Below, in pieces: positions 7,482 to 14,184 of a stretch of 32,613 nt of DNA; position 1 is the stretch's first letter; the number at the start of each line of letters is the position of its first letter. Both the position numbers and the translations under genes were made by a program. This DNA comes from Leptospirales bacterium (GTDB lineage: Bacteria; Spirochaetota; Leptospiria; Leptospirales; Leptospiraceae), in contig JAAFIR010000042.1 of the NCBI GenBank assembly GCA_013297885.1, forward strand, positions 2,293-34,905. Reading direction: 5' to 3'. Below the pieces are notes generated by a model. The model was not told where the DNA came from, ran no database searches, and saw only the letters and a list, made by a program, of their open reading frames with translations.

Positions 7482-7625
7482 TTAAGCAGTATGATTCAAA
7501 GAAAACTTTGGAGCTTCGTTTACCTCCATCAAATCGGTTGCATGCACTTTAAAATGTTCTTGAATCTTAAATTTAGAATCTTTTTTTAAAGACTCTATCC
7601 AGAATGATGTATCAATTAAATACAT
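7482..7625 (-). pseudogene. vapC: Truncated VapC toxin, decayed vapBC copy
   Basis: From ATG 7625 the first 28 residues (MYLIDTSFWIESLKKDSKF and IQEHFKVH) match the intact VapC at 12929-13330 almost residue for residue, including the first acidic PIN residue, Asp5. The match then stops and 19 unrelated codons lead to TAA at 7482, abutting the stop of the leucine-rich-repeat gene on the other strand. The later PIN-domain acids (Glu39, Asp94 and Asp112 in the intact copy) are absent, so the fragment cannot be a nuclease. Confidence 0.9.
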
Positions 7626-7743
7626 TTACACAGATAAATTCCTTCATCGCAATCATTACAGCTTCAGAATAAGTCTTCTTTTGAGAAAGACGGAGGGTTT
7701 GTTCCAAAATTTTCTCATCTAACACAAGATTTGTACGTTTCAT
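7612..7743 (-). pseudogene. vapB: Truncated VapB antitoxin, decayed vapBC copy
   Basis: The first 38 codons (MKRTNLVLDEKILEQTLRLS to MIAMKEFI) equal those of the intact VapB at 13331-13561. The remaining C-terminal part, which binds toxin in this family, is missing. The frame passes into the start of the VapC remnant and stops at TGA 7614. Compared with the intact copy, about 110 bp have been lost between two CATTTA-type microhomologies. The DNA-binding N-terminus is retained, so it could still act on the shared operator if translated. That last point is inference. Confidence 0.88.
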
Positions 7744-7778
7744 ACACATTGTATAAATTCCTGCATATTCTATGTCAA
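7743..7778 (-). promoter_or_regulatory. Promoter of the decayed vapBC copy
   Basis: On the minus strand TTGACA (7778-7773), a 17-base spacer and TATACA (7755-7750) precede ATGTGTATGAAA. Both hexamers, the spacer length and the ATACA-3-TGTAT inverted repeat are identical to those of the intact vapBC locus, while the spacer bases differ. Confidence 0.7.
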
Positions 7779-7793
7779 GGAAGAAAACGATTC

Positions 7794-8114
7794 TTGGTTT
7801 ACTTATCCATTTACGAAATCAAAGATGTCAAATCTGGGCTTTTAATATTCAAGTTACAAAAAATAAATTCAGATTTAAAATTTTTACATGACGGTTTTGG
7901 TGAGTTCCCAGAAAATATAATTTTTAAAGCTATTCCAATTAAAAAAGAAGATGATAGAAATTATTATTATTTTTGTTCAGACTGTGTAAAAATCGAAATC
8001 GACTACTATAATGGTTTTGAGCATGAAAAAATAATTCTATTTGATAATCAAAAAGATTTTCAGAAATTGAATCAGAACTTAATTGAATTCGAGAAGATTT
8101 TAGGTATTAAATAG
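7794..8114 (+). CDS. Small hypothetical protein, YNGFEH family copy 1, probably truncated
   Basis: The last 50 or so residues (SDCVKIEIDYYNGFEHEKII to LIEFEKILGIK) are nearly identical to the remnant at 13656-14069. The N-terminal half is diverged but still alignable at YLSIYE. The original start has been lost at a junction near 7800, where the sequence switches from vapB upstream DNA into this gene. Translation might start at TTG 7794, which has AGGAAG about ten bases upstream by chance of the junction. An earlier in-frame TTG at 7731 lies inside vapB antisense sequence and is unlikely. The function is unknown. The linkage to vapBC in both copies is the main clue. Confidence 0.45.
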   Translation: MVYLSIYEIKDVKSGLLIFKLQKINSDLKFLHDGFGEFPENIIFKAIPIKKEDDRNYYYFCSDCVKIEIDYYNGFEHEKIILFDNQKDFQKLNQNLIEFEKILGIK

Positions 8115-8218
8115 AAATAGAAAATAATATTAATTATTGGAAAATAATTTGGAGATATTCAAGCGGATGCAACTTGACCTACAATGAAAATTTTAATCTT
8201 TAAGGAAATACACTAATT

Positions 8219-12928: not shown

Positions 12929-13330
12929 TTAACGGATTGTAGAAATTCTTTTTTCTTTTAAAATTGTAAATTTAGAAATTTGAGAATAATCTCTATCTTT
13001 ATGAACAATTGTTGCATTGTTTCTGATAGCAATTGAAGCAATTAAACAATCGACTGAAGAACGGATTGTAATTCCTTTTTTTCTACCTTGACGATAAATT
13101 AAAATTGCTTCTTCAATTGTTTCTTTAGTTACTGTTTCTTCCAAAAATTTTGAATTGTCTAATGCTTTTTTTACAGCCCAATGTGCAGAATCGTCTTTAA
13201 TTCCTTGTAAAATTTCTTGGTAAACAGGGAGACAGAGATAGATTTCATGCACTTTAAAATGTTCTTGAATCTTGAATTTAGAATTTTTTTTTAAAGACTC
13301 TATCCAGATTGATGTATCAATTAAATACAT
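12929..13330 (-). CDS. vapC: VapC-type PIN-domain toxin (RNase)
   Basis: This complete 133-residue PIN domain has the expected acidic residues: Asp5 (LIDTSIWIE), Glu39 (PVYQEILQG), Asp94 (SSVDCLIASIAI) and Asp112 or Asp114 (HKDRDYS). VapC toxins are Mg-dependent endoribonucleases held inactive by VapB. The ATG at 13330 directly follows the VapB stop with no bases between, so the pair is one operon with antitoxin first. A truncated copy lies at 7482-7625. All catalytic positions are intact, so this locus is probably functional. The RNA target cannot be told from sequence. Confidence 0.92.
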   Translation of the reverse strand: MYLIDTSIWIESLKKNSKFKIQEHFKVHEIYLCLPVYQEILQGIKDDSAHWAVKKALDNSKFLEETVTKETIEEAILIYRQGRKKGITIRSSVDCLIASIAIRNNATIVHKDRDYSQISKFTILKEKRISTIR

Positions 13331-13561
13331 TTATTTATTCTTCTTAGTTTTACTTTTTATTGTTTTTGTATCTTTTCTCATTTCAGAAATATCACCTGAC
13401 CAAATTCCAGAACCTTGGAATTCAAATATTTTAGAAAATTCATTTACACGAATAAATTCCTTCATCGCAATCATTACAGCTTCAGAATAAGTTTTCTTTT
13501 GAGAAAGACGGAGGGTTTGTTCCAGTATTTTCTCATCTAACACAAGATTTGTACGTTTCAT
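13331..13561 (-). CDS. vapB: VapB-type antitoxin
   Basis: The protein begins MKRTNLVLDEKILEQTLRLS, a ribbon-helix-helix/AHH-type DNA-binding start. It continues through KTYSEAVMIAMKEFI and ends in a lysine-rich tail after FQGSGIWSGDISEMR, which should contact VapC. I chose ATG 13561 rather than the ATG two codons earlier at 13567. The strong promoter places transcription start at 13561, and no ribosome site precedes either codon, so the mRNA is probably leaderless. The start region also carries an ATACA-3-TGTAT inverted repeat, suitable for autorepression by VapBC. Confidence 0.88.
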   Translation of the reverse strand: MKRTNLVLDEKILEQTLRLSQKKTYSEAVMIAMKEFIRVNEFSKIFEFQGSGIWSGDISEMRKDTKTIKSKTKKNK

Positions 13562-13596
13562 ACACATTGTATAATCTACTACACACTCTATGTCAA
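13561..13596 (-). promoter_or_regulatory. vapBC promoter with overlapping inverted repeat, leaderless start
   Basis: On the minus strand TTGACA (13596-13591), exactly 17 bases, then TATACA (13573-13568). Six bases after the -10 box comes the A of ATGAAACGT at 13561. The sequence ATACA ATG TGTAT is an inverted repeat spanning the -10 box and the start. Identical boxes are kept in the decayed copy at 7743-7778 despite spacer divergence. Confidence 0.75.
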
Positions 13597-13655: not shown

Positions 13656-14069
13656 TTGATTGAGTATTAAAAACATAGTATACCGAGAAACGTAGAAGGG
13701 ATTTAAAAATGTTAAAAAGTAAATTATTGGGCAGATAAATCTTATCAAATCACAATTTATGAGAATGGAAAAGTTTATTTATTAAATGGACATTTTTTTA
13801 AAAGAGATCAAAAAAAAAATTTCCAAATAAACGAAAATACAATTAAAAAAATTCAGAATTCAATTCAAGAAATTATTCTATCCAAAAAAAACAAAAAAAA
13901 AGATGATGAGCCTCTTACTTATTATTCTTGTAGTGATTGTATTAAAATAAAAATCGACTACTACAATGGTTTTGAGCATGAAAATATAATTCTATTTGAT
14001 AATCAAAAAGATTTTCAGAAATTAAATCAGGACTTAATTGAATTCGAGAGGATTTTAGGTATTAAATAG
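13656..14069 (+). pseudogene. YNGFEH family remnant, copy 2
   Basis: From 13722 an open frame of 115 codons (NYWADKSYQITIYENGKVYL to FERILGIK) ends at TAG 14067-14069. It has no start codon: an in-frame TAA lies six bases upstream of 13722. The original start seems to be TTG 13656 behind AGGAGAA. That start is followed almost at once by TAA, and then about 40 foreign bases and a frame change separate it from the body. Comparison with copy 3 at 14185, which reads IEYSKNLKKN before its own break, supports this reconstruction. It lies divergently from vapB. The function is unknown. Confidence 0.7.
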
Positions 14070-14184
14070 AAATAGAAAATAATTTTTGTTATTGGAAAAG
14101 AATTTGGAGATATCAAGTTGATTTGAGAAGATTTAGTTTAAGTAAATTGGCTTACCTACTGAATTTAATTTTTGTATAGGAGAA

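Follow-up and report, generated by a model that had tools for sequence, protein, structure and literature searches.

The vapBC locus on the minus strand of the window (the whole stretch of 32,613 nucleotides from a Leptospirales bacterium that was analysed) raises the question of whether a toxin-antitoxin mRNA can begin on the start codon of its antitoxin gene and, if so, where the operator lies. The vapB gene (13331-13561) encodes a protein of 76 aa that matches the Pfam family VapB_antitoxin (PF09957) with 29.3 bits (cut-off 23.4), and the vapC gene (12929-13330), which encodes 133 aa with a PIN domain (PF01850, 50.5 bits), abuts the vapB stop codon, the junction reading TAA-ATG with no gap. 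VapC scored 110.6 bits against NF047959 TA_toxin_VapC, above the cut-off of 80, and 28.1 bits against NF047863, the equivalog for the tRNA(fMet)-specific leptospiral VapC, below the cut-off of 140. With a VapB antitoxin domain and a PIN-domain VapC directly downstream, both sequence features of type II VapBC were found, and the pair is an intact predicted type II VapBC toxin-antitoxin system. In about ten orthologues, the vapC start lies 11-14 bases before the vapB stop codon. Because the vapC start abuts or overlaps the vapB end, coupled translation is expected, and VapC is probably made in this way. The suggestion of the sequence-only reading that VapB and VapC synthesis would respond differently to ribosome state found no support in these junctions.

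Read on the minus strand, the sequence upstream of vapB consists of the −35 box TTGACA (13596-13591), a 17-base spacer (13590-13574), the −10 box TATACA (13573-13568) and the six bases ATGTGT (13567-13562), followed by ATGAAACGT with the vapB start codon ATG (13561-13559); the predicted transcription start (+1) is at 13561. This arrangement is the one that the sequence-only reading had described. Because the TATACA of the window lacks the usual final T, a generic promoter scan did not list this promoter. The pattern TTGAC-N18-TANNNT-N5-8-ATG, applied to the window's own genome, gave 23 matches as against 16 in a reversed control and was rejected as too unspecific.

Orthologues of the VapB clade marked by MKRTNLVLDE were searched for in the family, order, class, phylum and further orders, which gave 17 usable members including the window (a locus obtained from a VapB scan of genome contigs belongs to the same genome as G005 and was counted once). 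The clade members span Spirochaetota, from 85% identity in close relatives down to 42-50% in other orders. GC content at third codon positions of these loci ranges from 19% to 79%, and many hosts have about 60% GC. The closest relative genome among those searched is that of Leptospiraceae bacterium UBA2033. No relative was found in the viral contigs searched. Among plasmids, a single Leptospira borgpetersenii copy was found, frameshifted and of the same layout, and the other hits were more distant VapBs. This copy (L046:1160-1420, plasmid lbp2), annotated only as a hypothetical protein with an upstream start, retains TGGACT-N17-CATACT-TTGTGT-ATG.

In an ungapped alignment of the 17 sequences on the ATG, the layout TTGnnn-N17-(T/C)AnnnT-N6-ATG was retained, with small departures in a few. 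The TTG begins exactly at −35 in 13 of the 17 and is shifted by one base in another three, and the −10 hexamer, as TATACT, CATACT, CATATT, TACACT and similar, lies at −12..−7, exactly six bases before the ATG, in nearly all. The mean promoter score at the leaderless offset was 8.4, compared with −5.5 (sd 1.8) at other offsets, and this offset was the top one of 101 in 14/17, the exceptions being L022, L025 and L049. Mean pairwise identity was 0.75 for the TTG, 0.56 for the −10 box and 0.66 for −6..−1, against 0.26 in both the spacer and the flanks; in the coding region it was 0.95 over codons 4-7 and 0.51 over codons 10-20. The 17 sequences are related and hence do not represent 17 independent events. 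However, the spacer and upstream flanks are at background identity, which argues that selection, and not shared recent ancestry alone, has maintained the boxes. The sequence-only reading had proposed aligning the upstream regions of vapBC homologues and had staked its case on conservation of the boxes, and conserved boxes are what the alignment gave. We find it scarcely credible that AT-rich DNA produced the boxes by chance: promoter-like sites are not in excess here by a generic scan, but the same geometry recurs in genomes of about 60% GC, just one gene in a sample of 291 from the window's genome scored as high as vapB at the leaderless offset, and conservation already contradicts such a reading.

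The window also contains a decayed vapB copy (7612-7778, minus strand), in which the promoter, a half-site and the opening codons of vapB remain, the reading frame being cut to 43 aa. When the two copies were compared (7741-7778 against 13559-13596), six of the 17 spacer bases differed, while both boxes, the spacer length and an inverted repeat were kept at 7743-7778. This retention, which had been taken as support for function, is real. It is weak evidence taken alone, however, because the adjoining sequence (the first codons and some 25-30 upstream bases) is nearly identical between the copies. A coding segment (IDYYNGFEHE...) is duplicated on the opposite strand near both vapB copies, at 7990-8120 and 13950-14080, and together with them it seems to be part of one larger duplication.

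The bases directly before the ATG belong to a second conserved element. We trained a half-site matrix solely on the operators of a sister VapB clade of Spirochaetota (MRTNI type), whose genes have ordinary leaders and GGAGG-type ribosome sites. In 15 of 18 genes of that clade, ATGTGTAT is paired upstream of the start with ATACACAT or with a direct copy of itself, at a spacing of exactly 22 bp. Scanned over the leaderless clade, this matrix had its best position at −6..+2 in 17/17, and the hexamer alone, with the start-codon A and T excluded, ranked first or second of 121 positions in 16/17. The hexamer occurs in almost no other sampled gene of the genome. In the window, the predicted VapB operator half-site at this position (13560-13567, minus strand), which overlaps the start codon, is ATGTGTAT; many orthologues have ATACACAT, its exact reverse complement and hence the same double-stranded octamer. 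By these comparisons, the element that is conserved, in either orientation and together with the first codons, is the octamer at −6..+2. In this genus, the spacer carries a partial half-site, GTGTGTAG (13586-13579, minus strand), which is lost in the decayed copy.

The sequence-only reading had instead pointed to an inverted repeat, ATACA-ATG-TGTAT, which is indeed present and overlaps the −10 box and start. Its occurrence in both window copies would fit a role of this 5-3-5 repeat as the operator itself, but its arms do not match fully in the closest relative (L001, ATACT-ATG-TGTAT), most others lack it, and its right arm is conserved as the half-site while its left arm varies as the −10 box. 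We dropped the repeat as operator since it is unconserved among the orthologues, and consider such a role very improbable. It arises because the −10 box TATACA happens to precede the half-site and, as judged from the orthologues, is a by-product at genus level.

We placed the vapB start at ATG 13561 because the in-frame ATG at 13567 is not conserved: most orthologues have AAACAC, ATACAC or TTGTGT there and no ATG, and 13567 was rejected as the vapB start. No match to a Shine-Dalgarno core was found in −22..−4 of the window vapB, in agreement with the earlier remark that vapB has no ribosome site, and the match reaches four bases at most in any member of the clade. The conserved geometry that would place +1 on the A of the AUG, as had been proposed, and the missing Shine-Dalgarno site are the features expected of a leaderless gene, and they argue strongly that the vapB mRNA is leaderless, with the antitoxin first. 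Alternatively, a short-leader or more distant start could be the main one, with Shine-Dalgarno-independent translation. The start chosen at a promoter can shift by one or two bases, and L025 and L007 are one base off in their geometry; however, no conserved promoter was seen at the other upstream offsets tested and the flanks are unconserved, so that we regard such a main start as improbable. In Mycobacterium tuberculosis under stress, a leaderless reporter held up better than one with a Shine-Dalgarno site (PMC8485053). By this analogy, which is not evidence, the leaderless start of vapB might help sustain operon expression under impaired initiation.

VapB gave a borderline match to VapB11 (E = 0.017), whose residues 1-40 form a ribbon-helix-helix motif (PMC6265470). 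The predicted VapB monomer, a low-confidence model (mean pLDDT 67), has helices at residues 10-20 and 25-50 and an unresolved N-terminus before them, which is consistent with a ribbon-helix-helix fold but not proof of it. Considering the Pfam family together with the borderline VapB11 match and this low-confidence model, we infer that VapB reads DNA with its N-terminal segment, as the strand of a ribbon-helix-helix.

Synonymous sites are constrained in codons 2-9 of vapB (13535-13558, minus strand), which follow AAA CGY ACR AAT CTT GTG nTn GAT. Codons 5-7 are AAT CTT GTG in 17/17. In the 12 GC-rich hosts, Leu6 is CTT in 12/12 despite a local usage of 0.15, and AAT (0.28) and GTG (0.33) are likewise used in 12/12; for same-residue pairs among these hosts, codon identity was 0.83 over codons 2-9 versus 0.40 beyond (p = 2e-5). 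In the sister MRTNI clade, where the operator is upstream, codons 5-7 vary by inspection. If there is no 5' UTR, any operator sequence downstream of the start must fall within the coding region, in the codons of the antitoxin N-terminal strand, and we propose that codons 2-9 are constrained because an operator part sits there. A candidate second half-site, TTGTGTTA (13538-13545, minus strand; +17..+24, codons 6-8), lies 22 bp from the first; the TTGTGYTT at this position shares the TGTG core with the half-site, the match being partial and weak (z = 2.6). Codons 3-8 also form a dyad (+8..+22), and we take it, together with this partial match, for the downstream portion of the operator. We therefore infer an autoregulatory operator that would run from the start codon into the codons of VapB's own DNA-reading strand. 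That it extends from the start codon as far as codon 8 or 9, with the antitoxin strand motif and its DNA site evolving as one sequence, we put at an even chance. A diverged MKHTNLFLDE copy (L056, from G395) keeps TTGACG and a −10-like box and has lost both the −6..+2 half-site and the CTT GTG codons, a joint loss as expected if both belong to one operator.

The main rival to a coding-region operator holds that the mRNA is leaderless but that the constrained codons act in RNA, through a small hairpin at +8..+22 or another translation-level signal, perhaps one recognised by VapC. The dyad G(C/T)ACAA-ATC-TTGTG(C/T) in codons 3-8 (13540-13554, minus strand) could also form such a hairpin, G[C/U]ACAA-AUC-UUGUG[C/U], and in 112/114 pair cells the variants at CGY, ACR and codon 8 still allow a G-C, A-U or G-U pair. 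However, in the Leptospirales members this hairpin has very little stability (about −0.4 kcal/mol) and does not appear in the 40-nt minimum-energy fold. It also leaves unexplained the conservation of the untranscribed −6..−1, of AAA at codon 2 and of GAT at codon 9. We consider an RNA-level role of these codons unlikely.

The model that we favour as likely is a leaderless vapBC operon with a sigma-70-type promoter, autorepressed via −6..+2 and codons 2-9, with vapC coupled to vapB. RNA polymerase at the −35 and −10 boxes, which have canonical spacing, would begin vapBC transcription on the A of the vapB AUG. A VapB dimer, probably as the VapBC complex, would bind the half-site overlapping the start codon and would also contact sequence inside codons 2-9, the simplest case being the second half-site at a distance of 22 bp, or two helical turns. 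VapB or VapBC bound over −6..+24 would block promoter opening or escape and so repress the operon, and vapC would be translated by coupling to vapB.

Several parts of this model are known from other systems. M. tuberculosis has leaderless toxin-antitoxin operons whose mRNA starts at the start codon (PMC3898074). These are leaderless like the window vapBC but belong to another phylum and were mapped experimentally, whereas the start in the window is predicted; for them, we found no report of an operator reaching into antitoxin codons. The repressors AcuR (PMC3017554), NreA (PMC12724321) and cI of lambda and PY54 (PMC4488713) are made from their own leaderless mRNAs, and as predicted for vapB the promoter is immediately 5' of the repressor ATG with +1 on its A. 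The operators of acuR and nreA overlap the −35 and −10 boxes or sit between them, whereas the conserved site of vapB begins at −6 and extends into the gene. Leptospira interrogans, of the same order as the source (NCBI taxonomy), has leaderless mRNAs, with about 440 genes carrying a 5' UTR under 10 nt, and the main text of that study does not mention toxins (PMC5243855). Unlike L. interrogans, the source genome showed no bulk leaderless (−12) signature in a crude scan of 286 sampled genes, start calls being crude. Thus leaderless toxin-antitoxin operons, self-regulating leaderless regulators and leaderless Leptospira genes are known, and the coding-sequence operator is the newer part; neither phylum-wide conservation in this VapB clade nor an operator entering the antitoxin's own codons was found described in the literature searched.

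The sequence comparison by itself indicates that an antitoxin gene of predicted leaderless layout can persist throughout a phylum, whether the hosts are AT-rich or GC-rich. The locus also offers a proposed operator, open to test, that lies within the codons specifying the DNA-binding strand of the repressor it serves; by implication, silent substitutions early in antitoxin genes of this kind would not be neutral. The sister MRTNI clade shares the half-site ATGTGTAT/ATACACAT with the window clade but has its 22-bp operator pair in front of a start codon served by a Shine-Dalgarno site, whereas the window clade has the site at the start codon and is predicted to be leaderless; the two form a clean pair for asking why toxin-antitoxin operons often lose their leader.

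Related elements were observed in other vapB genes. The MATNL-type VapBs of Leptospirales (L010, L008, L012 and L015) have ACACA...TGTGT dyads in the −35/−10 spacer or in the leader, and L010 also seems leaderless, with TTGACG-N17-TAAGAT-N6-ATG. Between its TTGACA box and its ATG, which has a Shine-Dalgarno site, another vapB of the window's own genome (L004:1411-1484, on contig C22 of G000) carries a 12-bp tandem array, AGTTCACTGTGT in 6.2 copies, and this array looks like reiterated antitoxin half-sites.
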